Numbered from the stretch's first letter, positions 5,383 to 28,018 are shown. The stretch: DNA of 64,000 bases from Nocardioides sp. 1609 (GCF_004522105.1 NZ_SPUJ01000001.1:806001-870000), one strand, 5' to 3'. Notes: generated by a model not told the origin, from the sequence alone. Program-made: numbers and translations.

Positions 5383-5398
5383 CCCCCCCCCGGTCCAC

Positions 5399-5904: not shown

Positions 5905-5923
5905 ACCGGCCGATACACCTGGC

Positions 5924-6367: not shown

Positions 6368-6545
6368 CGTGTTCGTGACCTGTCCGTCTGCCAGAGCAGA
6401 CTCGGCCCTCACGCCATCGCCTTGTAAGTACCAGAACACCATGGATTAGCGTCGGTTCAGTTGAACATCGGCAACACGATCCCTTGACAACCACGTATCT
6501 GCGCTACCCGTTACGACCCCTCCGGCGGCTGGAGTGCCGCACGAG

Positions 6546-7599: not shown

Positions 7600-7830
7600 C
7601 GAGCTCGGCTAGAAGCCGAGACACTCGACTGGGCTTTCTACTGGCCGTCTCGCGACCGCCTGCCCGCGAGTTCGTGGACCACGGCGGCGATCGGCTGGTC
7701 GTGGCACCGGCAACGGGCCGGATAGAAGCGAGTATCGAGGTCGCTGTATACGCCCTGCAGACGCTACGGTCGCATGATGGTCGAGGAGGCCATCGACATC
7801 TACTGCGAGCCACCGAAATCGGCGTGCTCA
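7600..7830 (+). pseudogene. decayed SnoaL-like gene fragment
   Basis: Pieces of a SnoaL/NTF2-like fold appear in two plus-strand frames. EFVDHGGDRLVVAPATGRIE and then ALQTLRSHDGR occur in one frame; MVEEAIDIYCEPP continues in the next. In intact SnoaL proteins this order is a Gly-Asp-Arg beta strand, a Leu-Arg-Asp-Gly-Arg strand, then Ile-x-x-Tyr. A frameshift near 7775 separates the pieces and nothing recognisable precedes 7600. The limits are approximate. Confidence 0.35.
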
Positions 7831-8183
7831 ACGTCCTCTCGGATATCAGCGGAGCCGTCTACAGCGCCGCATGGGCCGATGGGTCCGGCTTGGCGAACTG
7901 GCCCAATAGGCCTTGAGCGCGGGCAGCCAGCCGTCCCGCCGGACCAGCCCGTATCCACTACCGTTGTACGGCCACATGGACCGCTGGTCACCCGTGGGGC
8001 CACCCGACGGCCCCGGAAACCCCGGTCCGGACCGTCCTGGGGCCCGTGGGAGGGCCCGAACATCCCAGTACGGTAAACGTTTCGATACATCGCGACTTCG
8101 GAAGACTTTCGGCCGCCGGATCGCGTAGCGTGACCGACCGCGCTGCACCCACTCCGGGGGCAGGAGATCTGGAGGCACCACGT

Positions 8184-9269: not shown

Positions 9270-9285
9270 TCCACCGCTGACGAGA

Positions 9286-9320
9286 AGGAGGGAGGTCCGG
9301 CCCCGGCCGGCCTCCCTCCT
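9286..9320 (+). terminator. hairpin terminator after the BMP lipoprotein gene
   Basis: AGGAGGGAGG (9286-9295) pairs perfectly with CCTCCCTCCT (9311-9320), and an inner CCGG/CCGG stem extends it. It lies 17 bases after the stop. It separates the lipoprotein gene from the ATPase remnant. Confidence 0.7.
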
Positions 9321-9360
9321 GGCTTTCCCGGAGAGGTCGCCCACCGCGCCGGTGGGCCCC

Positions 9361-9552
9361 CAGGCGTCCTTGTGCCCCCTCGAGGCCAACTGCCTGCTCG
9401 GGGAGAACGGCGCCGGCAAGTTAACCCTGATGAGCGTCCTCTAAAGCCTCTACCAGGCCGACGAAAGCCGGCCGGAGCTCGTCTGATCTGACGGCGTTGC
9501 GGCGAAGACGCTGTTGACGGCTGGGACCACCACATCTGGCAGGACATCGCCT
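9361..9552 (+). pseudogene. remnant of the ABC transporter ATPase gene
   Basis: In one frame the DNA encodes CLLGENGAGK followed by LTLMSVL, a stop (TAA), then SLYQADE and a second stop (TGA). This is the Walker A region of nucleoside-transporter ATPases (LLGENGAGKSTLMxxLYGLYxADxGEI), with the Ser of GKST changed to Leu and a Tyr codon changed to stop. No other ATPase motif can be found after about 9480. The rest of the gene has been deleted or has decayed beyond recognition. Limits are approximate. Confidence 0.65.
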
Positions 9553-9750
9553 AAGAATGACTCAGAGGTCATTTGCGTCACTCATGACAGCAACTGCCGA
9601 CCTTGAACTTAGCCCGAACGCGAACTGTGGCATTTCCACCGACTCGGGTTCGCTGACTCCCGACCAGGTGCTGGGCAAGTCGAAGCCCCCGCGTGCTACT
9701 GCTCGCAGACCACGCACGGCTGGCACACAAGCGTCGCCCGACACCTGTGC

Positions 9751-11406
9751 TCAGGCGAGTTCGTGACGTCTCGCCCACTCCACGAGACGCTCAAGTCGGG
9801 GGTCGCAATGCTCGACCCGTACGAACCCATCCCCGGTTATGATCGGGTACGTCGGCACTCTCCCGAACTCGACGACAACTTCGGTGATGACTTGTGCGGC
9901 GACCGACGCTAATTCTTGCGCGTCGCTCGCAATCAGCGGGCTGACCGACATCGTCACCGGCGTCAAGTGCTTGCGTGAGACGCTGCCGGCGACAACTTGG
10001 TCGTTCCGCGATCCAGGCGCGCCCTGCGGTGTCTGATCACAAATGACGTGGTCACGATCGGCCGGGCTTCCGTCTTGGGAGAAGTACTTGGGCGATGTCG
10101 ACGTGATGACCCCGCACTGCAGTTCGACGTTGCCTGCCGCCCCGGTGTCTGCGAGGTGCCCGGCGACGGTGCCAATCAGGGTGAGCGCCCAGTGGGTCAG
10201 ACTGCCGATCCGGAGTCCGACGGCGTCGTCTTCGAGTTCAGGGTGGCGAGAGAGGTGGGGCAAGGACTCGACTAGGTCGAGCGTCACCGCAGCGAACGCA
10301 CGACCGTTCGTGTAGCAATGCAGTAGGTGATCTGAGACCGATCGGTCCGGCGGACTGTCACGTAACACGACACGTCCACGGCCATATGAGGCGTGGTGGC
10401 CAAGGTGTGGCCCTGGAAGGCCGTCTTGGCGAGCCCGGGTGCATTGGACGACCTCGTCGAGCAGATTGGAATCGAGCATACGAGGGATCGCAGACCGCGC
10501 AGGAACCGCGGCGACTGCGAGCCAGGCGCGTCCGAGTGTGTCCAGTTCACCGACTCCGGTATCGAAGACGTCTGCGACTGCCTTGTTGATGTCGGTGCGA
10601 CCACTAAACCGGTCGCGATACGCAATGGCGATCTGCGGTTGCGTAAGAGACCGGGTGTGGCTTCCGTCGCGGACAGCAAATCGGTATCGGTGCTGATTGG
10701 GTGCCGACTCAGCATGTGGGCCATCGACGCTAGCTGGTACGTAGATCAGCACGAACCCCTGCCCTGCCTCGGTTGGTGACGGTACGTGTCCTACCTCAAT
10801 GCCAGAAATGTAGGGCGTCGTTCGTTCGCGGATCGTGTCGAGGATCCTTGACTTGTGGGTGTCGTTGAGTGGTACTCCTGGGCCATGGTGTGCGCGACCG
10901 TTGGAGTCGACGACGCCTAGGACGATGAGTCCTCCTCCCGCGTTTGCGAAGGCGATGACGTCCTTGGCCAATTCTGCTCGCTGATTCTCGACTCGAGCGT
11001 TGACCTCGTCGCTGTCGATCTCAGACCTTGCGTCCTCCTTTGCACTGCCACCCAAGCTGGCCTCGCGGTTGCTCTTCGCCTTGGGACTGCTGTTGATCTG
11101 CTCTCGAGCGATGTGCCGCTCGATTCCGTATCGGGTCCGCTTGAAGTCGATGGCGACGTCTTCAACGACACGACGCGTGATCAGGTCAGAGATGACGTCG
11201 AAGGTGACGTCGCTGAGACGTACGCCGAGAGTGGACTCCAGCAAGGGATGCCGCTCCCAGGACGGAACATTCCAGTCAACCCGCGCGAGCCTGGAGTCCG
11301 TTGCGCTCTCCCCGACGTCGTCCGGCGCGGACCCCGAGAATGCTGACGACTCAAACGGAGCGGGTCTTGCTGATGGTCGGTCGTGATTTTCGGCGTACAC
11401 CCTCAC
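9751..11406 (-). CDS. AlbA_2 (Schlafen-type) domain protein
   Basis: A 551-aa protein with an AlbA_2-type domain, a fold found in putative DNA/RNA-binding regulators and in Schlafen-related nucleases. The characteristic elements are IDFKRTRYG (about residue 90, equivalent to the LEFKE motif) and, after a charged insertion of about 45 residues, AKDVIAFANAGGGLIVLGV (about 147-165). The region to about 270 contains the second half of the domain (PASVDGPH, then YRFAVRDGSHTRSLTQPQI). The C-terminal half has no motif I know. It stands alone. Members are often found in defence regions, but a direct role is inference. Confidence 0.7.
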   Translation of the reverse strand: MRVYAENHDRPSARPAPFESSAFSGSAPDDVGESATDSRLARVDWNVPSWERHPLLESTLGVRLSDVTFDVISDLITRRVVEDVAIDFKRTRYGIERHIAREQINSSPKAKSNREASLGGSAKEDARSEIDSDEVNARVENQRAELAKDVIAFANAGGGLIVLGVVDSNGRAHHGPGVPLNDTHKSRILDTIRERTTPYISGIEVGHVPSPTEAGQGFVLIYVPASVDGPHAESAPNQHRYRFAVRDGSHTRSLTQPQIAIAYRDRFSGRTDINKAVADVFDTGVGELDTLGRAWLAVAAVPARSAIPRMLDSNLLDEVVQCTRARQDGLPGPHLGHHASYGRGRVVLRDSPPDRSVSDHLLHCYTNGRAFAAVTLDLVESLPHLSRHPELEDDAVGLRIGSLTHWALTLIGTVAGHLADTGAAGNVELQCGVITSTSPKYFSQDGSPADRDHVICDQTPQGAPGSRNDQVVAGSVSRKHLTPVTMSVSPLIASDAQELASVAAQVITEVVVEFGRVPTYPIITGDGFVRVEHCDPRLERLVEWARRHELA

Positions 11407-11786
11407 ATTCCACAGGCCCGGCTACCGCCGCACAACCTCACCCGAGTCGGGGCTCCGCCGCTCACGACGCTGCGGCCTGCTCAGTCACAATCCCGAACCA
11501 GCCAAAAGACCAGGCGGCCAGGCGAGGGACAGGGCCTCATCCAGGACCGCCTGGGCTGTAGAGTAATCCGCCGACGCTAAGCCGTTTCAAGTGGCGCCGT
11601 AGCGAATCCACCCAATCGGCCTACGCTCGACGCATGGATCCGTTCCTCGTCTTCACACACCTGCTCGCCCCAGCTGGCGGCGGCGGCACCGTCTGAGCGA
11701 GAATGCGGGCACGTCGACCTGGCGGCCGGGCCTGGCGACGGGCGGATGCCTAGAAGCCAAGACCGTGCCGGGCTTAGCGTGAGCCC
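11407..11786. other. intergenic, no supported gene
   Basis: About 380 bases between two divergent genes. It must contain the promoters of the AlbA_2 gene and of the frameshifted isomerase-fold gene, but I cannot single out sigma-factor boxes. Confidence 0.3.
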
Positions 11787-12438
11787 ATGACGCCGTTATC
11801 GTTCGAGCACACCGAGGCGGCCGAACAGTTCGCCCACCAGGCAGCGGAGTTCGTGTCGACGGCCAGGTCGCTCTCCGACATGGAGCTGCTCGCCCCGTCC
11901 TTGTGCCACGGCTGGAGCGCGCTCGATCTTGTCGTTCACGTCCGGACGGGCCTGGAGGAGATGGTCATCGGTGCTGCCCGCACCCTCAGCGAGCCCGACC
12001 ACGATGCCGCGTCCTATTGGTCGAAGGACCCCGGCGACGAAGACACCGATCCCGTGCCACATCCTCTGGCTCCGCCGGGTCGCAGCCGCCTACGGACGAC
12101 CCTCGGGGGCCGTGAGACATCTTGAGGAAGTGAGCCGGTCGGCGACGTCTGCGGCAGCTTCGATGCCCGAAGGGGTCATCGAGTTCCAGAGCAAGCGCAT
12201 GCGTAGCGGCGACTTCGTCGCTACCTGGGTCGTCGAGCTTGCCATTCACCAGCTCGACCTCGGCATCGCCCAAGACCAACCACGTGGGCTCGGATGGACC
12301 CGGCCTCCTCTGGAGGCCATCGCGGAGGCTGAGCTCCCGCCCGGGTTAGACGCCAGGTCCGCTGCACTTGTCGGTCTCGGACGCATCCCAGCACCGGACG
12401 GCGTGCCGCTTGCTACGTCGCACCCCGTGTCCCTCTAG
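11787..12438 (+). pseudogene. maleylpyruvate isomerase-fold (DinB-like) gene with frameshift
   Basis: The N-terminal part (ATG 11787) has the mycothiol-dependent maleylpyruvate isomerase pattern, with CHGWSALDLVVHV carrying the His of the metal triad. Near 12055-12065 coding moves to another frame, which continues with WLRRVAAAYGRPSGAVRHLE, then DFVATWVVELAIHQLDLG (second metal-binding His/Asp region), and ends with a normal C-terminus at 12438. Together these give about 215 residues, the usual length for the family. In actinobacteria these proteins use mycothiol as cofactor or partner. Either the gene is inactive or the base count at the junction is wrong. Confidence 0.65.
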
Positions 12439-13216
12439 CCGTCCGCGATCTGCAGGCGGAGTCCTCGACCGGAAGGAAGGGTTCACCTTGCGCTCGGTCG
12501 AGGCCTGACCCTCAACGACCAGGCACCGGAGACGTCGTCTGCGAAGCCTCTGCGTCCGGGGATCGGGCCTTGGGTCCCGAAAACTCGAGCTTGCGGGGCC
12601 ACCCATCACGAGTGAAGTCACCCGGTGTGGTGGATCCGCGCGACAAGTGTTCCGCGCGCGGCGCACGGTGACTATGGTCTGATCGGCCGGTCTTGCCGTA
12701 CCCCGTAGGGACTAGACGGAGTAACCGATAGGGCGCCGTTGACCTGCGGCGACTCGACGTCCTCGCTCGGCACCAAGACGTACCCGTGGACAAGCCCGTA
12801 ATGGGCGCCTGAGCAAGTTCACCGACTTTCTCGCTATCGCTCAACGGCTGCGCCGAACTAGCCGCGGGTAGCAGTCGTAAGAACCTCCCTGTTGGGCTGG
12901 CGGGAAGTCCTCACCTCGGCGGGTCTGACATTCGCGGATCCTTCTCGACAGGCTGACCACATTCAGGGACAGCTCGGGTCGCGCGGGCGCGGTGGGAGCC
13001 GGAATGTGCTGCGGTTCGTGCCGCTGTGCGGCGAGTAAGCGGGCTTCAGGGTCTTACTGTTTGGTCTCGGTTGACCGTCTTGTTCGACTGCGTATCGCGT
13101 GCAGGGTTCGCAGCGTCTTCAAGCCCGATGCGGGTGAGCGTCCACGTCCTGTCTTGTGTCATCTATAGATTACACATTGCGGGAACAAGCTCGCACCCTG
13201 ACCGGAGGCACACCCC
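12439..13216. other. gene-free left edge of the defence island
   Basis: Nearly 780 bases with no supported gene on either strand. This is the left margin of the 13-28 kb island. I found no integrase, tRNA gene or clear direct repeat. Confidence 0.35.
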
Positions 13217-13516
13217 ATGAACAAGACCCCCAGGAACATCAACCAGAACTGGTTCCACCTGACCTATTCCAGGTCCGCCCCCATCGGCCTCCCGCAGATC
13301 TTCCAGGCCGAACGCGTCATGCGCTACTGCGACGAGACCGGCACCTGGATCATTGCGCTCTGGGAACGCGCCGACGCAGCCGCCGACTCAGCCGCCGGCG
13401 CGATCGCAAACTGCATCCTGCGACTCCCCGCCGAACAAGTCACCGACGTGACCCAGCACCGCAGCCTCAGCGAGGCCGGGAAGGCGTTCCGGAGCGTGAC
13501 CGAGACAACGTCGTGA
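13217..13516 (+). CDS. small hypothetical protein at the head of the GIY-YIG module
   Basis: A 99-aa protein starting at ATG 13217, with a good ribosome site (GGAGG) 8 bases upstream. Sequence such as NQNWFHLTYSRSAPIGLPQI and ETGTWIIALWERADAAADSA shows a folded, soluble protein without signal peptide. Eighty bases separate it from the 705-aa gene that follows on the same strand, so the two are probably co-transcribed. No family recognised. Confidence 0.55.
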   Translation: MNKTPRNINQNWFHLTYSRSAPIGLPQIFQAERVMRYCDETGTWIIALWERADAAADSAAGAIANCILRLPAEQVTDVTQHRSLSEAGKAFRSVTETTS

Positions 13517-13596
13517 CTCGACACAGCTCGGCCACCACAGCGACACACCCAACCACCGCGCACCCTCACCCGTCCCTCAACGACAGGAACACCACC

Positions 13597-15714
13597 ATGA
13601 CCGAGTCAAACACCCAGCACCTATATGGAGCACCGCAGTCGCGACGATTCGTCCATCTCAACCGCGACAAGATCGACATCACCCGAATGGCCCCTCCCCC
13701 GGCCCTCGAAACAGTGACGACGAGCACCGAGACCGAGTACATCGCGGCGCTCACGCACGCGTTCTCCACAGGCCTCTTGCCGCAACTGCTCCCCGACAGT
13801 TTCGGACGAGCCCTCGCCCGCACCAGCGTCGCCGAACCGGCTCTGACAATCACCCGCATCCGCACCGGCATCGTCACGGATGTGACTGACACCGCCGACA
13901 TTGCTGTTGTTCGCATGAGGTTCTCACCCATGACGATCCTGCCCGGCGAACAGCCACGGGGCGGAGCCGCAGGCGGGCGACCAACCCAGGTACGTGAACC
14001 CACCGCCGGAAACGAGCCCGTCGCCGATCGCCTCGGCCTGCGAGTGCTGAAGTTCAACGACACCGACCACCTGCGCGCCTGGTGCGCAGATGCTCTCAGC
14101 CGCTCCTTAGACAGGGCCATGAAACGCGGCCGCCCCCAAGAAATCGCCGCGACCGGAGTAAGGCGACCCGTCTCCGCAGCGATGGTGCTGTTGCAATTCG
14201 AAGACGGGACCAGTTCGCAATGGGCACCCATGCTGAGCGACGGCATCAGCCGGCTCGCAGTATGCGGTGCCGCCCTACTCGGACAACTCGACGTCGACCC
14301 AGTAAGCGCAGCCGAAGTCATCGCCAGCCACCTCGTTCCCGCCAGCGTGCTGACACCGTCAAGTCCAGCCCACGAACTCACCCGCCGAATGCGCCGCAAC
14401 CACCAGTCGTTCATCGAGCAGTACAAACGGCATGTCGACGAACACGGAGCTGACGAAGACGGCGTCAGGCTGCGCCAGTTCCTCACCATGCCCGCTGACC
14501 TCCACCTCCTCGCGACTGACCCCGAGACAGGAAACCCGCATGCGATGGAACCAGTCATGGAAGCAGTGGTGTCGGACTCTCACACTGGAGTCGATGCCTG
14601 GGACGCCGAGGACGAGTCACGCCATACCGCATTCCGCGCGCTCAAGAAACTTGCCGCAAACGCCGCGATCAGCACCGAGCTCTATGACCTCTGCGCGAAC
14701 CGCAGCGACCCACGGGACACCGGCATCCTCAGGACCAGGCTGGCCGAATCGCACCGCCTCCCGCACGACGAAAACCCACAAGTCGTCGACCGAGACCTAG
14801 ACGTCGACCACGACCAACTTTTGCTGCGTCGCGCAGTCACCCTCATGGCAACGCTGCTAGGACCCTCCACCTACAGCCAATTCAAGACCGCACTTCGAGA
14901 CGTCAGCGGACGCCAACGGCTCACCCTGAACCAAGTCATTGACTACCTATCGCCACTTGTGTGCGAACCCTGGGGCACGCTCAAACCCATCACGCGTGCC
15001 TGGGCCTACGGTGGCCCCGTCCCCCCATCCATCGGCGAGACCACCCTCGTTCCCCTGCACCCGCCTGACTACCTCGCGCTCGTCGCCATAGCCCTCAACC
15101 CGGCAGAACCCGCCACGGCGATCACCCACGCACGACTCGAGCTCGCGCTCGCCGGCGGCACCGCCCTCATCGCCGACGGAGTCCTCACCACCACCATCGT
15201 CGGGGGATCCGGCAGCGCCCTCAGCCCCCTGCCGTTCCGAGGTCCGGTCAACGCTGCGGTGGACGCTCTCACCCACACCGAGGAAGGCCTCACCGCCCTC
15301 GCTGTTGCTGCGAATCACTTCAAACCCGGCCGCAGCCTCCGCACAGCACGACTACCGGCCATCGACATGCGCCAACCGGACCGCGTCGCCCGAGACGGGG
15401 TCGGCATCCCTATCAGAACCACCGAGACTGTCCTCGCCAACTACGCGGCCCAAGCCACCAATGTCGGCACAGAGACGCGAGGAGCGCCGCCCTCGTCGGC
15501 CCCGTCAACAACTCCGGAACCCACACCCCTCGCGAACCTGCAAGCCCGAGCCCGCCACCTCCCAACCGACACCAAAGCGCTGCTGCAAGATGTCGAACTC
15601 ACCAAGAGCCTCCACGACGAAACCGGAGGGCCCACCGGGCTCAACGAACACGAACTGGACGCAGTTCACGACTCCCTGAGCAGCGCCCTCAAGCTCGTCG
15701 GACGACTCACGTGA
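13597..15714 (+). CDS. large protein of unknown function coupled to a GIY-YIG nuclease
   Basis: A 705-aa protein from ATG 13597; an in-frame extension to 13156 overlaps the preceding gene and is not protein-like. No signal peptide or membrane segment. Residues about 148-215 (VLKFNDTDHLRAWCADAL, then AAMVLLQFEDGTSS and LSDGISRLAVC) vaguely recall the DG-x-x-R core of ParB/DGQHR-type domains, but this is weak. The C-terminal 150 residues are Pro/Thr-rich, then helical. The stop overlaps the start of the GIY-YIG gene (GTGA), which implies translational coupling and a shared task. I do not recognise the family. Confidence 0.75.
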   Translation: MTESNTQHLYGAPQSRRFVHLNRDKIDITRMAPPPALETVTTSTETEYIAALTHAFSTGLLPQLLPDSFGRALARTSVAEPALTITRIRTGIVTDVTDTADIAVVRMRFSPMTILPGEQPRGGAAGGRPTQVREPTAGNEPVADRLGLRVLKFNDTDHLRAWCADALSRSLDRAMKRGRPQEIAATGVRRPVSAAMVLLQFEDGTSSQWAPMLSDGISRLAVCGAALLGQLDVDPVSAAEVIASHLVPASVLTPSSPAHELTRRMRRNHQSFIEQYKRHVDEHGADEDGVRLRQFLTMPADLHLLATDPETGNPHAMEPVMEAVVSDSHTGVDAWDAEDESRHTAFRALKKLAANAAISTELYDLCANRSDPRDTGILRTRLAESHRLPHDENPQVVDRDLDVDHDQLLLRRAVTLMATLLGPSTYSQFKTALRDVSGRQRLTLNQVIDYLSPLVCEPWGTLKPITRAWAYGGPVPPSIGETTLVPLHPPDYLALVAIALNPAEPATAITHARLELALAGGTALIADGVLTTTIVGGSGSALSPLPFRGPVNAAVDALTHTEEGLTALAVAANHFKPGRSLRTARLPAIDMRQPDRVARDGVGIPIRTTETVLANYAAQATNVGTETRGAPPSSAPSTTPEPTPLANLQARARHLPTDTKALLQDVELTKSLHDETGGPTGLNEHELDAVHDSLSSALKLVGRLT

Positions 15715-16319
15715 CGTCCCAAGACCCGTACACCGTCAGTCGCGACCTCTCGCCCGCGAGGGCCCAGCCACCAGGTCTGAGGACGACCCGAGTTGCGCCG
15801 GCCGAGGCACCGCCAATATCAGGCATGCATCCGGAGCTGGCAATCGGCCCGCTACACCCGCCTTCACCCTCCACGCAGAGTCACGGCGAACCGGCACCCC
15901 ACGCTTACCGGCAAGACCGACGACTAGATGACTGGGAGACCTGGCTAAATCTCAGCACCACAAACCCTGTCATCTCCCGCCGCGAAGCCATGGCCGTGCG
16001 GTACGTGCACGGTGGTCGCGTCCTGGACCCTGACAGTTGGCCCACCGAAGCAGTCACCCGAATCTATGTAGCCTTCGACGAAGTCAGCGCCGTCTACGTC
16101 GGACAGACGTCGCGGTCATTGCTTTCGCGAACCAAGAGACACTTCGCGAATCAGCGCACTGCAGTCCAACAACACAAAGCAGGAACGTGGCAGTTCATCG
16201 TCAACGCCGCATTCAACGACCTCGCCTCCGGCGACCTTGACCGCCTTGAACTCTCTGCCGCCCGGTGGCTCTTACCGCTCCACCATCGCACCGATCGCCG
16301 CCACCCACGCGCCGAATGA
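15711..16319 (+). CDS. GIY-YIG-type nuclease domain protein
   Basis: A 202-aa protein whose GTG start overlaps the stop of the 705-aa gene by 4 bases. The first 75 residues are Pro-rich and probably flexible. The C-terminal half matches a divergent GIY-YIG fold: TRIYVAFDEVSAVYVGQTSR (the YVGQT strand carries the second Tyr), then LLSRTKRHF (catalytic Arg, conserved His/Phe), and LDRLELSAARWLL, which supplies the expected metal-binding Glu. The first Gly-Ile-Tyr is degenerate (IYV). Family members cut DNA in homing, repair and restriction. With its coupled partner it may form a defence or mobile-element module; that is inference. Confidence 0.65.
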   Translation: MTSQDPYTVSRDLSPARAQPPGLRTTRVAPAEAPPISGMHPELAIGPLHPPSPSTQSHGEPAPHAYRQDRRLDDWETWLNLSTTNPVISRREAMAVRYVHGGRVLDPDSWPTEAVTRIYVAFDEVSAVYVGQTSRSLLSRTKRHFANQRTAVQQHKAGTWQFIVNAAFNDLASGDLDRLELSAARWLLPLHHRTDRRHPRAE

Positions 16320-17115: not shown

Positions 17116-18306
17116 CTATGACCAACCCGCGAAGAGCCCGGGGTCTCCACCGCCTCCGAGGACCGCCCTTACCGGGTCGACCTGTCTCGCGATCCGTTGC
17201 TGAATCAACGGCAAGTAAGCAGCCTCACGTTCGACAGCAATCACCGCGAAACCCTCCAAAATTGAAGCCTCCACAGTCGTCCCGGAACCCGCGAACGGAT
17301 CAAGCACCACTCCGCCAGGCGGAGTGACGAGTCGGACAAGTTCACGCATCAGACCAAGCGGTTTGACAGTCGGATGCGCAACCCCGTTCACGACTACCCG
17401 TTCGCTCTGCCCCGGCTTCGGATGCCAGAAGAACTCCGCCACCGGGCGACCCCCAGCCTTCTCCTCGAGCACCCCCGCAGCGGTATGGCTGAGAAACACG
17501 TCCGAGGGCCATCGCCCGACCGACCCGTCCATCCCAGAGCCATCAGAGGCACGCACCCGACAGCCATCAATGTTCAGGGCACCAGTGCCGTGACGCAGCA
17601 CGTTGCTTGCCACAGTGCCCTCTAAGCTCTTGCGTGCCAAGACGATTGGTTCGTGTGCCGGCTTGAGTGTCGTTCCCCACCCCGCCCACAACGCGCCCGG
17701 CAAACCGCTCCGCTCCCCAGCACCCTGCCTCGCAGAACCCCCAATACTCTTCGACCCGTTGATAGCCGCCTCGACATTGACCCCCTTGGGAAATCCCGTC
17801 GCATAAAGCCAAGCCATCGACCCGCGAATCGTGAACTCGGCAAGTTCAATACCTCGGGCCAGCCGATGCCAAGTCGGTGTTCCACCAAACGCGACGAGGT
17901 GCCCACCCGGCTTGAGCACACGATGACACTCCGTTGCCCACAGAACACACCACGCCTCAAACACGTCCGGATCGTTGTCCACGTACCCGCGGGAGTGGGT
18001 AGCCTTCTCATCCCAGTTCTGGGACTGCATGCCAAGCATGTTCGCCTGCATCACGCCGCTTTCCGCCTCAGCGAGACAGTCGCTGCAGGTTCGGTAACCT
18101 TCCGCAGGATTGTCGTTCCCGCACTCCTGGCAGGCGCCGTCCGCCGCATCATCGCCAGAGGTCGAGGTTCGAGCAGCCGCTGAACCGATCGCGTAGGGAG
18201 GGTCCGTCACGACCGAGTCAACGGATGCGTCCGGCAATCCTCGAAGCACTTCAAGACAATCGCCGTTGAATACTTGGGTCCTGGGCACTTCGCTTGTCTT
18301 GTTCAC
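17116..18306 (-). CDS. beta-class DNA methyltransferase (N4-cytosine/N6-adenine) with zinc-ribbon-like insertion
   Basis: A 396-aa site-specific DNA methyltransferase. I start it at the GTG at 18306 (VNKTSEVPRTQVFNGDCLEV); a longer frame to 18528 is arginine-rich and not protein-like. The catalytic motif TDPPYAIGS is at about 34-42 and the SAM motif LDPFAGSGTT at about 335-344, the order of the beta class. Between them are WATECHRVLKPGGHLVAFGG and HPTVKPLGLMRELVRLV, both typical. Unusually, residues about 59-77 hold two Cys-x-x-Cys pairs (CQEC and CSDC), a probable zinc ribbon inserted next to the catalytic loop. No endonuclease is adjacent, so it may be an orphan or a phage/element-protective enzyme. 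Confidence 0.9.
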   Translation of the reverse strand: MNKTSEVPRTQVFNGDCLEVLRGLPDASVDSVVTDPPYAIGSAAARTSTSGDDAADGACQECGNDNPAEGYRTCSDCLAEAESGVMQANMLGMQSQNWDEKATHSRGYVDNDPDVFEAWCVLWATECHRVLKPGGHLVAFGGTPTWHRLARGIELAEFTIRGSMAWLYATGFPKGVNVEAAINGSKSIGGSARQGAGERSGLPGALWAGWGTTLKPAHEPIVLARKSLEGTVASNVLRHGTGALNIDGCRVRASDGSGMDGSVGRWPSDVFLSHTAAGVLEEKAGGRPVAEFFWHPKPGQSERVVVNGVAHPTVKPLGLMRELVRLVTPPGGVVLDPFAGSGTTVEASILEGFAVIAVEREAAYLPLIQQRIARQVDPVRAVLGGGGDPGLFAGWS

Positions 18307-18691
18307 CCAAGACCCATCGGCCCGATCGACGGCGTCGTGACCGACTTCGAGGATGCGCCCGCAACATCTGGGTCGGACACGGGGCTCGACACCCGTGGCC
18401 TCACGCAGGAAGAAGGTGCGTCTGGGCTCCGCGACCTTGACCAGCAACCAACTGCGACCCGTGGGCGCGCACCGGCGACCCGGCCTACAACGGCGCAACG
18501 CTCGGCCCCGCTTCACTGGCGATCGCAACTTGCTTGGGCAACCCTCTTGCTCAGCAAGAGGTAGCTCGGACGCCCCGAACGCGCCGCCCCGGACCTAGCA
18601 GTCCCCCGCACGTCCTGAGGCGGGCGAGTACGAATACCTGAGGAAGACAACAAGCTAGGCACGCTAGAGCAGACCTCATGGTGAACCAGCG

Positions 18692-19039
18692 TCAACTGGG
18701 TCTGTCGGGCCTCCGAGGCGCTGGCCGTACGGCAGCGGACTCAGCTGAGTCGTCTACGAGCGGGGGGTACGGCTGCAACGTGACGAGAAGGTCGCTGACC
18801 GTCGTCTCAAGCGCCCAAGCCAGGTGAGACAATGTGCTCATTCGAGGATTGGCAGTTCGCCCGTTCGAACCACTGCCAGCCTCGAGGGCCGCGTAGTGAG
18901 CCCGCGTGATACCAGAGCATCGGGCCACCTCGGCTTGCGTCAGCGACCGGTCCGTTCTGAGACGCTGGAGATTCATGCCGAGGCTGATCGCGTTCTCGCT
19001 ACCTGCGCTGTTCGCACTCACTCGGCAATTGTCACTCAC
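18692..19039 (-). CDS. XRE-family transcriptional regulator
   Basis: A small helix-turn-helix protein. The HTH reads LQRLRTDRSLTQAEVARCSG, then ITRAHYAALEAGSG, with a Leu-rich helix after it (MSTLSHLAWALETTVSDLL). I prefer the GTG at 19039 (115 aa), which supplies helix 1 of the domain; ATG 18976 would cut it. The larger frame to 19210 is arginine-rich. It lies 177 bases downstream of another minus-strand XRE gene. It probably regulates genes within the island. Confidence 0.65.
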   Translation of the reverse strand: MSDNCRVSANSAGSENAISLGMNLQRLRTDRSLTQAEVARCSGITRAHYAALEAGSGSNGRTANPRMSTLSHLAWALETTVSDLLVTLQPYPPLVDDSAESAAVRPAPRRPDRPS

Positions 19040-19215
19040 TCGGACGTGGCGCAACGACCTCCCCCGCGATCGCGCCGCCTTCGACCTTGACCCCGAGTTT
19101 GAGAAGCAGAAGTCGTCGCAACCGTTGCTCCACTCACGACGTGGGCGGCTGGGGTGCCGAGCCCCTACAGACACCGGCGAGGGTCCAGTCGTGACACAGA
19201 CGTACCGCACACCCC

Positions 19216-19482
19216 TCAGCCCCGCTCGTCCGTCAGACCGAGCCCAACAACCAACGCGCCGGGATCAACCTCCAACGCGGCGGCAAGCCGCAGCAGACTA
19301 CGAAGTGTCACGTTTCCCTGCCCACGCTCCACACGCGACACGAAGGACCAGTGCAGCGCACTGCCCTCCGCCAGGCTCTCTAACGACTTGCCTTGGGCTT
19401 GGCGAGCAGCCCGGACACGGTCACCGAACTCTGCTCTTGCTATCTCGAACTGCGCATCGTCGGGTCGCTGTTGCGTGGACAT
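19216..19482 (-). CDS. XRE-family transcriptional regulator
   Basis: An 88-aa cro/CI-type DNA-binding protein that is almost entirely HTH: FGDRVRAARQAQGKSLESLA, then WSFVSRVERGQGNVTLRSLL, followed by AAALEVDPGALVVGL. The ATG at 19482 has little leader before a possible minus-10 box, hinting at a leaderless message. It is divergent from the lipoprotein gene at 19637, with about 150 bases between, and may control it and itself. Confidence 0.8.
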   Translation of the reverse strand: MSTQQRPDDAQFEIARAEFGDRVRAARQAQGKSLESLAEGSALHWSFVSRVERGQGNVTLRSLLRLAAALEVDPGALVVGLGLTDERG

Positions 19483-20966: not shown

Positions 20967-21248
20967 TCATCGGGGCGACTGCGCCACGCGCGCCAACGCA
21001 TCGTCAGGCAGCTCGAGCGCCGCCCAGATGGCGCGGACAGTGAAAAGCCCAGGATTCGCCGTACGCCCATCCTCGATCTTGCGTAGCGCGCTCTGCGACA
21101 GATCCGTAAGCCTGACGAGCGCGTCGAGCGAGACACCACGTTCGTGGCGCATCCGGCGAACGTAGGCCCCGAGGGGTTCACCAGCATCAGCGTCGAAGAC
21201 CGAGCCCATGACGTGCGCCACCACCTCTCGTACGTCCACAGCGGACAT
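20967..21248 (-). CDS. XRE-family regulator, possible controller of the adjacent restriction operon
   Basis: A 93-aa HTH protein: LGAYVRRMRHERGVSLDALV, then RLTDLSQSALRKIEDGRTAN, and FTVRAIWAALELPDDAL. It is divergent from the five-gene methyltransferase/restriction operon that starts at 21344, with 95 bases between. A perfect inverted repeat (TGTCAC, 4-base spacer, GTGACA) begins 3 bases before its start codon. This is the arrangement of controller proteins that delay endonuclease expression until methylation is complete. The regulatory role is inferred from position; the HTH itself is clear. Confidence 0.78.
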   Translation of the reverse strand: MSAVDVREVVAHVMGSVFDADAGEPLGAYVRRMRHERGVSLDALVRLTDLSQSALRKIEDGRTANPGLFTVRAIWAALELPDDALARVAQSPR

Positions 21249-21250
21249 GT

Positions 21251-21266
21251 TGTCACTTTTGTGACA
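21251..21266. promoter_or_regulatory. inverted repeat at the divergent XRE/restriction-operon promoter
   Basis: TGTCAC and GTGACA form a perfect 6-bp inverted repeat with a TTTT spacer. A candidate minus-10 box (TACTAT, 21268-21273) lies alongside. The repeat sits immediately upstream of the XRE start codon and about 80 bases before the first methyltransferase gene. It is the best candidate operator for the XRE protein. Confidence 0.5.
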
Positions 21267-21343
21267 GTACTATTAGCACACAGAGTTCGTGCCGATACCT
21301 TTGGCATGGCCTCATCACGACGGCCCGAACCCGAGGAGGACCG

Positions 21344-22705
21344 ATGACGTACGACGCAGACACGCGGTTGCGCCTCGAGCCTTGGCGACCCGTCCAGTTC
21401 CTGGGCAGCAAACTCCGAAGCCTCGACCGAATCGCAGCCGCCATCACGACCACGACCGGCACCGAACCGCAAACCGTCTGGGAACCGTTCACCGGCTCAA
21501 GCGTGGTCGCACAACGTCTCGCCGGCGACGGGCACACCATGTGGTCGTGCGACGCGATGGCCTCAAGCGTGCAATTCGCGAGCGCGCTCCTCGGGTGCGG
21601 GCGCAACGCCGGCACCGCATCCGTGACGCAAGTCGTCAAAGACGTACGGCAGGCAGCTCACCTGGATGCGCCCTCTCCGTGGGATCCATGGCTTGCGGGG
21701 GAACAGTCCGCTCTCGCCAACCGGGACGGCTTCAGCCTCCTGAGAGAGAACACCCAGCTCCCCCAGCGATGGAAGAGCATCGAGGCAGACAGCCCGCTCG
21801 CGGGCCTCTTCGCCACGGTGGACACCGCCGCGACCGACGGGCAAGTCCTCGCCGAAGGACTCCTCAGTTCTACCTACGCAGGAACCTACTTCGGGCTCAC
21901 CCAAGCCGTTCACCTCGAACGGTTGCGCGGCGCAATCGACATCGTCACGCCGGCAAGTTCTCGAGCATCTGCATGGCAGAGGTCAGTCCTACTAACTGCT
22001 CTGTGTCACGCCGCGTCAGCGGCCGTCTTCTCCGCAGGCAAACACTTCGCGCAACCCCACCGGATCCGTGAAGGCAAGGACCTTGCCTTCCACGCGCGTC
22101 GCGCTCTCAGTGACCGTTCAGTAGACGTCGTCTCGACATTCGACGCAGCCGTCAAATCCATCGACCGCGTCGCAGCGTCCATGACTGAACACCATGACGC
22201 CACCCAGACACGCGTCGAGAATGTCACCGCAGAAACCCTGAAGGACCGACACGTGACAGCCGTGTACGCCGATCCTCCGTACACCTCGCAGCAGTACAGC
22301 CGGTTCTACCACGTTCCCGAGGTCATGGTCGCCGGAGTACCCGCAGACCTGCAACACGCTCGCGGTTCAGTAACACGCGGCCTGTACCCGACAGATCGTT
22401 ACCGATCGCCATTCTCGTCGCGGACTCAAGCCCCCGGCGCATTCGCACACTTGGCAAATACCTGCGCAAGCGCTGGGGCCCAACTCTATGTCTCATATTC
22501 GGGCACCCGATCCGCCGAGACCGGAAATGCGAGGGTCGTGTCGATGCCCGACCTTGTCTCCATCATCGGAGATGCTTACGGACAGCCGAACGTGACCATC
22601 CACGAGCTCGACCTCCGCTACCGCCAGTTCAACCACACCACATCGGGCATGTCCGGGCGTGACGACCCGGAGTACCTCATCATCGGGAGAGACCATGCTC
22701 GCTAG
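21344..22705 (+). CDS. DNA adenine methyltransferase, D12 class (first of pair)
   Basis: A 453-aa alpha-class (D12/Dam-like) N6-adenine methyltransferase. A strong ribosome site (GAGGAGG) precedes ATG 21344. The SAM site is in two parts: PVQFLGSKLRSLDRIAAAI (about 16-34) and VWEPFTGSSVVAQRLAGDGH (about 46-65). The catalytic DPPY is in VYADPPYTSQQYSRFYHVPE (about 306-325), followed by QLYVSYSGTRS, the usual strand after the catalytic region. About 240 residues between the SAM motif and DPPY hold the target-recognition domain. It is the first gene of an operon of five overlapping genes, paired with a second enzyme of the same class, as expected for an asymmetric recognition sequence. Confidence 0.85.
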   Translation: MTYDADTRLRLEPWRPVQFLGSKLRSLDRIAAAITTTTGTEPQTVWEPFTGSSVVAQRLAGDGHTMWSCDAMASSVQFASALLGCGRNAGTASVTQVVKDVRQAAHLDAPSPWDPWLAGEQSALANRDGFSLLRENTQLPQRWKSIEADSPLAGLFATVDTAATDGQVLAEGLLSSTYAGTYFGLTQAVHLERLRGAIDIVTPASSRASAWQRSVLLTALCHAASAAVFSAGKHFAQPHRIREGKDLAFHARRALSDRSVDVVSTFDAAVKSIDRVAASMTEHHDATQTRVENVTAETLKDRHVTAVYADPPYTSQQYSRFYHVPEVMVAGVPADLQHARGSVTRGLYPTDRYRSPFSSRTQAPGAFAHLANTCASAGAQLYVSYSGTRSAETGNARVVSMPDLVSIIGDAYGQPNVTIHELDLRYRQFNHTTSGMSGRDDPEYLIIGRDHAR

Positions 22706-24020
22706 ATATTTGGGCAACAAGACGGCGATCCTGACACCGCTCATGGACACCATCGCTAAGTACGCCGACCCCGGCGATCACGTGGTCGACGCGTTCTCAG
22801 GATCCCTTGCGGTATCGCTCGGCCTCAAGAACAGCGGATACCGTGTCACCGCCAACGACATTAACCTTTTCTCGGCCATCTTCGGTGACGCATACCTGAT
22901 CCCCGACGAACCGCCAATCACGCCGCTAGCCGACCTCATCCCTGACCGGACCGCAACAAGTACCCGCCCCGACCTTCGCCGCGAAGCCGAGGCCATCGTC
23001 GCTAACTTGGTAGGCGCACCCGGTTTCACATTCCTCAACAAACCAGTCTGGCGCGACCGGTATGTGGACTACGTCGCCGTCCTCACCCACCTACAAACCA
23101 TGACTGCAGATGACCTCGCCCCCGAACATCGTCGCAGCCACTTCTTCGACACCTACTGCGAAGAAGGAGCCAACGCAGCGTTCGTGAGCTCGCGCGGGAC
23201 CTCCGGACGACGACGCTTCCTCATCCCACTCAACGCCGAACGCCTCGACCTCGCTATCAACCAGGTCCGAGCATGGTTCCGCGACGACCTACTCGACACA
23301 CACCTCTACTCACTCCTCCTGGCTGGCCTCGTGCGCTCGATAGAAACGGTCTCAAACACCCAGGGCACATTTCATGACTTCATCCGCACAGGCTGGGATT
23401 CACGCTCACTTCGCCCCATCCAGTTCAAGCCACTTCCCCTAGACGACACGCTGGGCGGGCCCGGCGGCCACCGGGTAGGACGCGAACAGGACACGATCGA
23501 GTTCATCAGCGACGTCGACCACCACGCTGTCCTCTACCTAGATCCCCCTTACAACTTCCGCCAGTACACCGCCTACTACTTTCTCGCGAACGTCATCTGC
23601 AGGTACCCCACCATGCCTGACCCGGACGCCTACTTCGCCGACGTCCGGTACGTCCGGGGCCAAAACCCCGCCGACGACTTCACCTCGACTCTTTGCAAGC
23701 CGCGCCGCTTCATCGACGACATGACCACACTCATCGGCAGGTCGCGCAGCGACACCGTCGTCGTCAGCTACTACACGGGGCCCAACCACTGGGGTTCCTT
23801 CGACACCGACCCCACCAACGTGGGGCGCCAGCACCTGACAGACATGCTCACCGGGGACCTGTTCGAGTCAGGGACCCTAGAGGTCGTCGAGGTACCCCGC
23901 CGCAACTACGCCTCGTACGGCGGATTCAAGGCCCGTGATGTCACCGAACTACTCATGATCGCCCGAAGACGCGACACTGGACCCCATGGCTCCCACCCCA
24001 CCGAACCAGGCCCTCACTAG
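22695..24020 (+). CDS. DNA adenine methyltransferase, D12 class (second of pair)
   Basis: A 441-aa alpha-class adenine methyltransferase. ATG 22695 follows a GGGAGAG ribosome site and overlaps the end of the first methyltransferase gene by 11 bases; a 12-residue longer frame from 22659 is less likely. The SAM-binding parts are RYLGNKTAILTPLMD (about 4-18) and HVVDAFSGSLAVSLGL. The catalytic motif is VLYLDPPYNFRQYTAYYFLA (about 279-298), and TVVVSYYTGPNHW lies in the final part. It resembles its neighbour in layout but only distantly in sequence, so the two probably modify different strands or half-sites rather than being a recent duplication. Confidence 0.85.
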   Translation: MLARYLGNKTAILTPLMDTIAKYADPGDHVVDAFSGSLAVSLGLKNSGYRVTANDINLFSAIFGDAYLIPDEPPITPLADLIPDRTATSTRPDLRREAEAIVANLVGAPGFTFLNKPVWRDRYVDYVAVLTHLQTMTADDLAPEHRRSHFFDTYCEEGANAAFVSSRGTSGRRRFLIPLNAERLDLAINQVRAWFRDDLLDTHLYSLLLAGLVRSIETVSNTQGTFHDFIRTGWDSRSLRPIQFKPLPLDDTLGGPGGHRVGREQDTIEFISDVDHHAVLYLDPPYNFRQYTAYYFLANVICRYPTMPDPDAYFADVRYVRGQNPADDFTSTLCKPRRFIDDMTTLIGRSRSDTVVVSYYTGPNHWGSFDTDPTNVGRQHLTDMLTGDLFESGTLEVVEVPRRNYASYGGFKARDVTELLMIARRRDTGPHGSHPTEPGPH

Positions 24021-24768
24021 CGGCTTCCTCCCATGGCTCGGCGCCCGCACAAAGGGGCCTGACGCTCCCCTCGATCCGTGGGGGACGTCGCTACGTAACA
24101 CGAAGCGAACCGTCGCGTGGATGACTGCCATCCGCGACGGCCAGCCAATCCCCTTGGACGCCGACCGCTCGAAAGAGCAAGCAGTCATCGACATGAAAGC
24201 CCTAGCAGGGCTCGTGTCCGGCTACCACAACAACAACCTCGCCCTCACGCCCGTGGGCACCGTAGTCCTGCAAACCTGGCAAGACGAAGGCCTGGTCGGA
24301 GAATCGGACGGCGAAGAGGTAGCTCGATGCATTCACCTCATCCGCCACGTGTTCCTCCACGGAGTCGAGGCGACCGCAGCCCTCGGCTGCAACGTCGACT
24401 ACCGCGGCATGTACGCCCGTTGGATTCGTCTACGTCAACTACAACCACCCCACTACTGGTGGCAGAGCGTCGAACACGCCCAACTACCCAGTTACCTCGA
24501 CTGGACTGACCTCAACGGCTACAACCCGTGGTCCGAGCTCGTTGAAAAGACAAGCGGCGACGTCGGGACTGTCGCACAGTGGCAGAGCTGGGCCGGCAGC
24601 GTAGTACCCGAGGCTGCCGGGGTCACAGATCTGCTCGCTCGCATCCGCGGCAACCACCGACTCGGCGGCAGCAGAGACTTCCGCCAAGCCCTCGAGTGCA
24701 TCTACCTCGCGGAGTTCGACCCCGCCTCACTTTCAGACACGCTGACCCGATGGGGAGTCCCTACATGA
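23986..24768 (+). CDS. 260-aa protein of unknown function in the restriction operon
   Basis: A 260-aa soluble protein whose start overlaps the second methyltransferase gene by 35 bases and whose stop overlaps the next start (ATGA). Residues about 70-105 (KALAGLVSGYHNNNLALTPV, GTVVLQTWQDEGL) have the look of a winged-helix segment: a helix, a basic turn, then Leu-Thr-x-x-Gly. Several Trp-rich stretches follow (PPHYWWQSVEHAQLPSYLDW). I recognise no catalytic motif. Position between the methyltransferases and the McrB-like motor suggests a restriction subunit, perhaps for site recognition, like the third restriction gene of BsuMI. That assignment is inference. Confidence 0.7.
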   Translation: MAPTPPNQALTSGFLPWLGARTKGPDAPLDPWGTSLRNTKRTVAWMTAIRDGQPIPLDADRSKEQAVIDMKALAGLVSGYHNNNLALTPVGTVVLQTWQDEGLVGESDGEEVARCIHLIRHVFLHGVEATAALGCNVDYRGMYARWIRLRQLQPPHYWWQSVEHAQLPSYLDWTDLNGYNPWSELVEKTSGDVGTVAQWQSWAGSVVPEAAGVTDLLARIRGNHRLGGSRDFRQALECIYLAEFDPASLSDTLTRWGVPT

Positions 24769-25919
24769 GCTACACCAATCCCAACGCCCACCAGCTCATC
24801 ATCCGTGCAGCAGGCGGCGAAACGACCTACGCGTGGACCCGCGACCTCACCGACGATGTGCTGCCCAACATCGACGTAGATGACCTGCTACTTCGTGTAA
24901 ACACTGAACTTGCTTCGCACCACATCGTTTACCCGAACCAGGACGCGCTCGTACGGCGATGCTTGACGGGCCTACTGGTCGGACACGTCATTCTGCAAGG
25001 TCCGCCCGGCACCGGGAAAACCACGTTGGCACGTGCTTTGGCGAACGCGTTCGAGGTCCACCTGCACCCATCCACCGCGACAAGCGAATGGTCGCCTTTC
25101 CACGTCGTCGGCGGCCTCCGCCCCACGAACGACGGCGGACTCTCACCAGCACTCGGAGTTGTTCCGTACGCCGTCTTGAACTGCGCTGAACTGACCCGAG
25201 CCCACCTTGAAGGCACCACCGGATCAGCACCCGTCGGCACCTGGCTCCTCATCGACGAGTTCAATCGAGCCGACATCGACAAGGCCATCGGATCGCTGTA
25301 CACGCTGCTGTCTTCGTGTGAACCCGCTCACCTCCGAGACACCCCGATCGATCTCTGGTTCGAGGACAACGACCCAAACCGCCAGCTCTGGGTTCCTGCG
25401 AGGTTCCGCATCATTGGCACCATGAACGACCTGGACACCGGATACGTGTCGGGGATGTCGCAGGGTCTACGACGCCGGTTCCAGTTCATAACCGTGGGAG
25501 TCTCCGATGAGGGTGCAACCGATGCCGACCCCACTACCCAGGAGCTGCAGAGCGCGCTAGCTGGTGCTCGCGCAAGCCTCGAGAACACATACGCGATGAC
25601 CATCGCTGACTCCGCCGACCTCACCCAAGCACTCCAACGGCTGCAACGCGTGGTCGACGGACTCCGGCGCCCCAAGAGCGGTGTAGCCGGGTGGCCGGTG
25701 GGAACCGCCCAAATAGTCGACGTGCTTAAGTCGTACCTGCTCAGCGGGCCAGAAAACACCCATTCCCTGGACGAAGCCGTCACTCAACGACTAGTCGGCC
25801 AAATGACCATGATCAGCCAGGGCCAGTTCGAGACATTCCAGACGCTCCTGACAAGTGAGTCACTGACTCTCGCAGCGCAAGAATTAGCTCACCTCTTTCG
25901 GCCCTACGTGGTCACGTGA
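24765..25919 (+). CDS. McrB-like AAA+ NTPase of a restriction system
   Basis: A 384-aa AAA+ motor; ATG 24765 overlaps the preceding stop by 4 bases. Walker A GPPGTGKT is at 79-86 and Walker B WLLIDEFNRADID at about 160-172, with the Asn-Arg after the acidic pair as in McrB. The McrB signature region appears as IIGTMNDLD (about 216-224), in place of MNTADRS, followed by the arginine motif QGLRRRF (233-239). In McrBC and LlaJI such proteins form a hexameric, NTP-driven translocase that activates a McrC-type nuclease. Here the nuclease candidate is encoded immediately downstream, again with a 4-base overlap. No N-terminal modified-DNA-binding domain is obvious. Confidence 0.85.
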   Translation: MSYTNPNAHQLIIRAAGGETTYAWTRDLTDDVLPNIDVDDLLLRVNTELASHHIVYPNQDALVRRCLTGLLVGHVILQGPPGTGKTTLARALANAFEVHLHPSTATSEWSPFHVVGGLRPTNDGGLSPALGVVPYAVLNCAELTRAHLEGTTGSAPVGTWLLIDEFNRADIDKAIGSLYTLLSSCEPAHLRDTPIDLWFEDNDPNRQLWVPARFRIIGTMNDLDTGYVSGMSQGLRRRFQFITVGVSDEGATDADPTTQELQSALAGARASLENTYAMTIADSADLTQALQRLQRVVDGLRRPKSGVAGWPVGTAQIVDVLKSYLLSGPENTHSLDEAVTQRLVGQMTMISQGQFETFQTLLTSESLTLAAQELAHLFRPYVVT

Positions 25920-28018
25920 CCACCACAGACGCCGGCGCCCCCGACAGCATCACTGACATCGCAGACGAAGACACCTCAAACTCGTTCGCTCCGGGCGGAG
26001 CTCTCAGCCCGGCCGGGCGAGAACATGCCATCCGACAAGCGCTGCCAATCCTCGGCCGCTACTTCCAGAAGGTCGGGTCCGCCGAACGCCTTGTCGCCCG
26101 CAATGCCCTCGACGTCGCACCCTTGCCACAAACCGACATCGACCAGCGTCTGCTCGGCGGGCTGCGCCTGCGAGCAGCCCTTGCCTCCGCCGAACCGGTC
26201 TTGGACGCCATTCGCAGTATTTGCCGCCAACCTTCGTTTCGGTACTCCCTAACCAAGAGTGAGAGCGTCGGCCACCTCGGCGGGACCCTCGACGTACCGG
26301 CATACGTGTCGCGCATGTACTTCGACGGCGGACCTACGATCTACCCCATCTCAGAAGTCGAACGATCGGTTCGAACACCCGAGAACCAGATGACGGCCTA
26401 CGCAGCCATGTGGATGATCGAGGAACTCCGAGGCAGCATCCAAGCAGCGAAAGCGCCAGCTCAATCCCCTGAAGCTCGACTCGCAACTGACCTCGAGAAT
26501 CAGTTCCGAGCAGCAATCTCAGGACCAACACTCGCGCCCTGCCGCGAAGACGCCGCCCTCGCGCTTACACGCGGTAACTACAGTGACCTTATGTCTCGAG
26601 TGGAGGCAAGGCTGAGGCGCGGCGAGATCGGCCACGGTCACCATTACCAGACTCTCCACGCTCTGCTAACGCGGTTACAGACCACTGGCCCTACCGGTCA
26701 TGAAGGTCACAACACGTGGTCGTTCTACGACGATGCATTCGACCCCCGCCTCTTTGAACTATGGTGCCTCGTCGTCGTTGCTAAGGCCTTATCGGAAGCA
26801 CTCGCTGACGACCTCCCCACCCTTGACCCCGAATGGACCGGAAGCGGCCTTGCGTTTTGCTGGGAACGTCCCGCCGGAACACTCGAAATGTATACACAGA
26901 AGTCCCTGCCTCTGATAGATCCCAAACTACCGGCGCGGTGGGTGAAGAAAGGGACCGCCCAACCCATGCGCGGCATCCCTGACATCGTCGTTCGAGGCCT
27001 TAACAGGTACTCGGGGAAAGTTCGCGTGGCGCTGCTAGACGCAAAGCTTAAGCAGCGCTCCTCGCCGCCGACCGAGGAGCTGTATAAGCTACTCGGCTAC
27101 TTCGACAACTTCGGCCTGACGAACGACCCACAAGGTGCAATCCTCTTCCACGATCCCGCCACAACCGAAACACACACCACCATCTTCACCCCAGTCGCGA
27201 TTGGAACAGTCGCTGACGAAGGACGGGGCTGCCTGATCGCCACCCCACTGAATCCTTCTGACTCGACCCAGACCACCGCATCGCTCATCGACGTAGTCGA
27301 CATGATGCTGTCGCTGCTCGATCTGCCTGCGGCGCACCGGAACTCGATCAGCACAAGCCCTGACACCGGCGACAGCGCAGGCCCGGACAGCGAGGTGACG
27401 CACGAAGCGCACGTCCACCGGATCCGAGATGAACTTCGTGCGCTACGAGTGCAAATCCACCCAAGCGACCTAGACGCGTCAAAACGACGAATGAAGACGG
27501 CACTAGGCCAAGCCACCTGGTCTCGACTGACCGAAGACGCCCAGGACATGCTCGCCACCGCCGAGAACGTCGGATTCACCATGTCCGAACAAGCCGACTT
27601 CTCAGGTCCCGTCCTAGGGGCAGTTTGCCCCCTGGAACTGGTACTCGACAGCGAGCTCGTCGCGCCCGCCAAACTTCGCCTCAACAACAGCGATGCCAAA
27701 AAGATCGGCTTCATGTTAGGACAACAGATCGAAACGATCGCTCAGGCGCTAGGCAATGGCACCGCGGCCCACCACCTAGCGATCCAGGCTGAGGCAACCG
27801 CACGAGGAATGAACCTTCTGAAACTACGGAACTGCCTTGCCCTCCTCGCCGACCTAAACCGCGATCATCGCAGGCGAGCTGCACACAAAGAGAAGCTGTC
27901 ATCAAGTGACTGGGCAGCGGTTTACCAGCGCGTCGTCACCGGCGACCGATTGCTTGTTGAACTCGTAGCTGCCCTCAATGTTCAACCCGTACTGCCCCCT
28001 TCTCCACCACTGCCCTAA
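25916..28018 (+). CDS. PD-(D/E)XK nuclease subunit, McrC/LlaJI-R2-like
   Basis: A 700-aa protein starting at the GTG that overlaps the McrB-like stop (GTGA). The central part carries a PD-(D/E)XK-type core: RGIPDIVVRG (about 352-361), RVALLDAKLKQR (about 370-381, giving Asp-x-Lys), then ELYKLLGYFDNFGL (about 388-401), the helix that normally follows. The N-terminal 340 residues may contact the motor, as in McrC and LlaJI R2. The C-terminal 250 residues form a separate region with a possible DNA-binding or dimerisation role. It is the likely cleaving subunit of the system. The family assignment rests on motif order and neighbours. Confidence 0.78.
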   Translation: MTTTDAGAPDSITDIADEDTSNSFAPGGALSPAGREHAIRQALPILGRYFQKVGSAERLVARNALDVAPLPQTDIDQRLLGGLRLRAALASAEPVLDAIRSICRQPSFRYSLTKSESVGHLGGTLDVPAYVSRMYFDGGPTIYPISEVERSVRTPENQMTAYAAMWMIEELRGSIQAAKAPAQSPEARLATDLENQFRAAISGPTLAPCREDAALALTRGNYSDLMSRVEARLRRGEIGHGHHYQTLHALLTRLQTTGPTGHEGHNTWSFYDDAFDPRLFELWCLVVVAKALSEALADDLPTLDPEWTGSGLAFCWERPAGTLEMYTQKSLPLIDPKLPARWVKKGTAQPMRGIPDIVVRGLNRYSGKVRVALLDAKLKQRSSPPTEELYKLLGYFDNFGLTNDPQGAILFHDPATTETHTTIFTPVAIGTVADEGRGCLIATPLNPSDSTQTTASLIDVVDMMLSLLDLPAAHRNSISTSPDTGDSAGPDSEVTHEAHVHRIRDELRALRVQIHPSDLDASKRRMKTALGQATWSRLTEDAQDMLATAENVGFTMSEQADFSGPVLGAVCPLELVLDSELVAPAKLRLNNSDAKKIGFMLGQQIETIAQALGNGTAAHHLAIQAEATARGMNLLKLRNCLALLADLNRDHRRRAAHKEKLSSSDWAAVYQRVVTGDRLLVELVAALNVQPVLPPSPPLP

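Follow-up and report, generated by a model that had tools for sequence, protein, structure and literature searches.

Five overlapping genes on the + strand of a 64,000-nucleotide stretch of the Nocardioides sp. 1609 genome (GCF_004522105.1, NZ_SPUJ01000001.1:806001-870000; hereafter the window, to which coordinates refer unless stated) probably encode a Type II, modification-blocked and McrBC-like restriction-modification (RM) system of the LlaI/BsuMI/LlaJI group, protected by N6-methyladenine (m6A) and equipped with a proposed HEPN fail-safe. The assignment builds on the gene set, the protein families and motifs, the folds of structural models and the conservation of the genes together in other genomes. 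Operons of this kind have been known since the 1990s; the unexpected part, judging from the model, is that the DNA-cutting protein appears to carry an extra tail resembling an RNA-cutting (HEPN) domain. The genes, and the motifs on which the argument turns, are the following:

21344-22705, + strand: M1, D12-class N6-adenine methyltransferase, 453 amino acids (aa; Pfam PF02086, 2e-11)
22695-24020, + strand: M2, D12-class N6-adenine methyltransferase, 441 aa (Pfam PF02086, 1e-15)
23986-24768, + strand: X, 260 aa, no library match, probable DNA-recognition subunit
24765-25919, + strand: McrB-like AAA+ nucleoside triphosphatase, 384 aa (AAA_5, 2e-16)
25916-28018, + strand: McrC-like PD-(D/E)XK nuclease with C-terminal HEPN-like domain, 700 aa
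26972-27046, + strand: PD-(D/E)XK motif GIPD...DAK, residues 353-377 of the nuclease
27401-27985, + strand: HEPN-like domain, about residues 496-690 of the nuclease, with R652-x4-H657 at 27869-27886

An earlier note on this DNA had described five genes overlapping by 11, 35, 4 and 4 bases, two methyltransferases of the adenine rather than the cytosine class, a McrB-like motor and a PD-(D/E)XK nuclease, and these descriptions held up. The overlaps were found as described when the coordinates were re-read from the sequence; the interval that had been marked starts at 20967 and also takes in a divergent gene on the - strand. A strong ribosome-binding site precedes M1 and a fair one precedes the ATG of M2 at 22695, for which a GTG at 22659 is a possible alternative start. 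The genome holds a single copy of the system.

Both methyltransferases match the Pfam family MethyltransfD12 and carry motifs X, I and IV (DPPY) in D12/alpha order (FLGSK, EPFTGS and DPPY in M1), which places them in the adenine class. M2 is also related to a phage gene deposited as 'LlaI methylase' (26% identity, 4e-23), itself of the D12 class. By analogy with LlaJI, whose site is GACGC/GCGTC (PMC1459862), two methyltransferases would reasonably imply an asymmetric target. The motor assignment follows from matches of the AAA protein to AAA_5 and to E. coli McrB (1e-10) and from its motifs, namely Walker A (GPPGTGKT), Walker B (LIDEF) and the signature MNDLD (NxxD), as found in the McrB-like AAA+ subunits of the LlaI/BsuMI/LlaJI group. 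A CoCoNuT identity was considered and rejected: CoCoNuTs are defined by an NxD GTPase signature and a long coiled-coil fused to the McrB-like protein (PMC11090510), whereas the signature here is NxxD and the 384-aa protein has only ~70 residues before Walker A.

None of the libraries searched, Pfam, PADLOC and NCBIfam among them, gave the 700-aa protein a significant match by sequence. Four residues of its nuclease motif, P355, D356, D375 and K377 (PD-x18-DxK), are nevertheless invariant in 11 aligned proteins, and its AlphaFold model (predicted local distance difference test score, pLDDT, 73) has as top Foldseek matches E. coli McrC (1e-5), the BsuMI YdjA-YdiS pair (9a5m, 4e-5) and other McrC chains. 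VIA-align superimposed residues 31-465 on McrC (Z 9.9, 274 residues) with a root-mean-square deviation (rmsd) of 13 Å, a large value indicating that the domain positions differ. A BFVD fold search returned no significant match. The invariant motif and a model nearest to McrC and YdjA mark the protein as the McrC-like PD-(D/E)XK partner of the motor.

The remainder of this subunit resembles an RNase. Within the whole-protein model, residues 502-685 fit best on the HEPN RNase domain of RnlA (Z 11.1, rmsd 3.0 Å, 142 residues), and the next match of the region, at Z 6, is Csm6, which is also a HEPN protein. According to a survey of HEPN domains, the Rx4-6H motif closes a helix and an acidic residue sits in a helix upstream of it (PMC3710099); in the model, helix 634-656 has R652-x4-H657 at its end, and the long helix before it contains E574. 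An alignment of nine proteins shows no variation at D561, E574, N648, R652 or H657, N-R-x4-H is kept in 12/12 proteins that have the C-terminal domain, and the equivalent residues of RnlA relatives (D245, E258, R318 and H323) show the same D-x12-E and R-x4-H spacing. Since this support comes from fold and invariant residues, with sequence profiles negative, we consider the domain to be probably HEPN. Fusions of restriction endonucleases to HEPN domains recur in RM systems, and a PrrC-like fail-safe logic has been proposed for them (PMC3710099); our literature search turned up no fusion of HEPN to the McrC-like nuclease of a LlaI/BsuMI-type system, though this does not prove that none exists.

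The survey for the same gene order that the earlier note had proposed found all five genes, in order, in two Sciscionella genomes, at identities of 55% (M1), 61% (M2), 34% (X), 54% (AAA protein) and 36% (nuclease). Because the five are kept in order in two other genomes, the set is not a chance assembly; its genes overlap, so that the methyltransferases are encoded alongside the restriction genes, and the related systems found here always carry methyltransferases. A single-sequence scan of genome contigs with the 700-aa protein returned nothing, and an alignment-based scan returned 10 loci. Loci in Arthrobacter, Paenarthrobacter, Pseudarthrobacter and Rhodococcus contain the same AAA protein and nuclease together with, where scanned, a pair of N6_N4-type methyltransferases and an unrelated 264-aa protein, MTaX1, in place of X. 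In M. paragordonae and Modestobacter there is a single N6_N4 methyltransferase, and an N-terminal extension of ~240 aa on the AAA protein takes the place of a separate X. Searches of 96 relatives and of 395 genomes from the class recovered the window's own copy alone (a sister genome gave a weak, partial match interrupted by stops, which was left out of the count), those of 297 genomes of the Sciscionella family recovered only the two Sciscionella loci, and no relative was found in viral contigs. The few matches across the sampled genomes indicate that the system is rare in what was sampled.

This distribution bears on the role of X, for which Pfam, PADLOC, NCBIfam and PDB yielded nothing meaningful (an aminotransferase match at E 0.61 was rejected as chance) and which has relatives, among the sequences searched, only in the two Sciscionella operons. 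X occupies the position of the first of the three restriction genes in LlaI and BsuMI. Across the actinomycete relatives the motor and nuclease are constant and the methyltransferases and first restriction subunit change together, such that X is replaced, in systems with other methyltransferases, by MTaX1 or by the N-terminal AAA extension. A joint swap of this kind is expected if the first restriction subunit reads the site that the methyltransferases protect, and suggests that X is probably the specificity subunit. Such a role would agree with LlaJI and McrB, where the target is bound by the N-terminal part of the motor protein (PMC1459862, PMC7680126). Trees of the motor and the nuclease are compatible with one origin per methyltransferase class, their branches being too long to put the swaps in order. 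One motor-nuclease pair serves at least three different sets of methyltransferases and recognition elements, and comparing the 260-aa, MTaX1 and N-terminal-extension proteins offers a natural way to learn how unmethylated sites are read by McrBC-like enzymes. The earlier note had missed both this exchangeable specificity cassette and the HEPN-like tail, which are the points worth specialist attention.

From these comparisons we infer how the activities may be divided. M1 and M2 would each modify an adenine in one of the two strands of a short and probably asymmetric site, and X would recognise that site when unmethylated. The McrB-like AAA+ ring would then translocate DNA using GTP (or ATP), and the McrC-like 700-aa subunit would stimulate the ring and cut DNA with its PD-(D/E)XK site. 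The HEPN-like domain would be a metal-independent RNase, silent in the intact complex and released once restriction is inhibited or overwhelmed, much as PrrC is held inactive by the PrrI restriction enzyme and freed by the action of a phage inhibitor (PMC3710099). In its fullest form, the proposal is of an m6A-protected McrBC-type enzyme whose nuclease is a DNase-RNase fusion, whose latent RnlA-like HEPN domain arrests the cell when a phage blocks restriction, and whose lineage keeps this fail-safe while swapping the methyltransferase and specificity cassette; we give this full version an even chance of being correct.

Several observations weigh against an RM system working in this manner. R652 is followed by a residue other than the N, D or H usual at that position, E574 lies outside the usual Ex3[KR] pattern, a profile comparison of the HEPN-like domain with RnlA was negative, and helical bundles can reach similar Z scores through their common arrangement. 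The C-terminal domain is absent from the Sciscionella systems and from one metagenome-assembled genome, and the Sciscionella systems indicate that it is not needed for restriction. X is without a fold assignment, its model from three sequences reaching only pLDDT 42, and purified LlaJI subunits had neither GTPase nor cleavage activity in vitro (PMC1459862).

The atypical residue and the lack of a profile link to RnlA, together with the existence of non-catalytic HEPN domains (PMC3710099), would be accommodated by the same RM system having a non-catalytic C-terminal domain, HEPN-like or otherwise helical, that serves in assembly or nucleic-acid binding, with no RNase and no fail-safe. We regard this as a serious but rather unlikely alternative: both motif residues and the two upstream acidic residues are invariant, whereas most non-catalytic HEPN families lose Rx4-6H (PMC3710099), and a domain that can be absent is not an essential part of the assembly. 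On the reading preferred here, the locus is a compact and testable case in which DNA restriction and a predicted RNA-cutting fail-safe occupy one subunit, with natural relatives in Sciscionella that have no second layer.

The resemblance of the motor and nuclease to McrB and McrC could also be taken to mean a Type IV-like system, in which the McrBC-like part would cut DNA carrying modifications of other origin and the methyltransferase pair would just happen to lie next to it. LlaJI-type systems, however, restrict unmethylated DNA (PMC1459862). The overlap of the genes, the conservation of the five as a unit and the constant presence of methyltransferases in the related systems also argue against a Type IV-like system, which we consider very improbable. 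Least credible of all is the proposal of the earlier note that a McrBC-like module had been recombined, without precedent, with adenine instead of cytosine chemistry: LlaJI does have two cytosine methyltransferases, and those of BsuMI are likewise cytosine-5 enzymes, but LlaI is an adenine precedent, two public plasmids (from E. coli and Lactobacillus) pair D12 methyltransferases with LlaJI-family nucleases, and Sciscionella has the same five genes. Thus, the LlaI/BsuMI/LlaJI-like layout recognised in that note stands, and the adenine version of the module is not new.

Two further features lie between the interval's start and M1:

20967-21248, - strand: divergent helix-turn-helix (HTH) protein of the HTH_31 family, 93 aa (Pfam HTH_31, 2e-12)
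21251-21266, no strand: perfect inverted repeat TGTCAC-TTTT-GTGACA, intergenic, read from the sequence

With M1 as its neighbour across the intergenic region, the HTH_31 protein is a possible controller of the operon and the repeat a possible operator. A relative of the HTH_31 protein was looked for at the related loci and none was found.

A solitary N6_N4-type DNA methyltransferase gene (17116-18528, - strand) lies a few kb from the operon and adjoins genes for two small HTH regulators at 18692-19210 and 19216-19482; no nuclease was recognised beside it. Elsewhere in the window are genes for an AAA_21/OLD-like ATPase similar to the defence-system proteins AriA, GajA and NsnB (234-2003, + strand) and a Schlafen AlbA_2 domain protein (9751-11406, - strand), and two overlapping genes (13156-16319, + strand; 852 and 202 aa) with no Pfam or PADLOC match. 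Taken together, these genes give the window's left part the look of a defence island, while ordinary catabolic genes begin near 31 kb.

Earlier literature already places LlaI, BsuMI and LlaJI together as McrBC-related Type II systems whose Type IIS methyltransferases come in pairs (PMC2614495; also PMC1459862), and a 2024 census found methyltransferase association, probably ancestral, in all three branches of McrB-like GTPases (PMC11090510). LlaI, from the Lactococcus plasmid pTR2030, shares adenine-type D12 modification, three restriction genes and a short McrB-like subunit with the present system (PMC1459862). In the collections searched, LlaI was represented only by the phage gene deposited as 'LlaI methylase', and the complete locus was absent. 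LlaI methylates adenine according to the title of a 1991 paper given in a reference list ('type II A methylase'). Going by a title in reference lists, its operon has one methyltransferase gene, llaIM, against two here; the llaIM product is a fused two-domain enzyme.

BsuMI of Bacillus subtilis (ydiO-ydiP-ydiR-ydiS-ydjA) likewise combines a pair of methyltransferases with three restriction genes, arranged by function as here; its McrB-like subunit is also short (PMC1459862), and our 700-aa model matches YdjA (9a5m). The YdjA chain is, however, modelled with 465 residues, compared with the 700 of the protein described here. LlaJI (pNP40) is similar in its two methyltransferases, McrB-like and PD-(D/E)XK subunits and Type II behaviour; its motor subunit binds the site, its nuclease subunit carries the PD-(D/E)XK motif and both are required in vivo (PMC1459862). 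It differs in its cytosine methyltransferases (both operon enzymes here are D12, so that the system is not LlaJI proper), in a recognition domain fused to the motor and in having two restriction genes (PMC1459862). Neither the 700-aa protein nor its aligned relatives match Pfam RE_LlaJI (PF09563), which the nuclease of the E. coli plasmid NZ_MW574942.1 matches at 8e-31. That plasmid carries a homologous M1-M2 pair in the same order (26% and 30%), but its restriction part is of the two-gene LlaJI type and lies on the opposite strand. At its positions 6509-12337 the D12 pair and LlaJI-type genes are convergent, and the first methyltransferase has an N-terminal HTH_3 domain.

More distant systems share single elements. 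FokI-type loci (two were found) were set aside as relatives, the methyltransferase type being shared and the nuclease unrelated, and PcaI of Pectobacterium differs in its single Dcm-like cytosine methyltransferase. The prophage Javan105 of Streptococcus (its positions 4754-11547) has paired D12 methyltransferases and a third methyltransferase, with a gene annotated as RloC anticodon nuclease nearby. PrrC and PrrI offer a parallel in that a predicted HEPN RNase is coupled to an RM system and serves as a second line of defence (PMC3710099); PrrC, however, is a protein of its own, has an ABC ATPase and is partnered with a Type Ic RM system, whereas in the present operon nuclease and HEPN-like domain share one chain.

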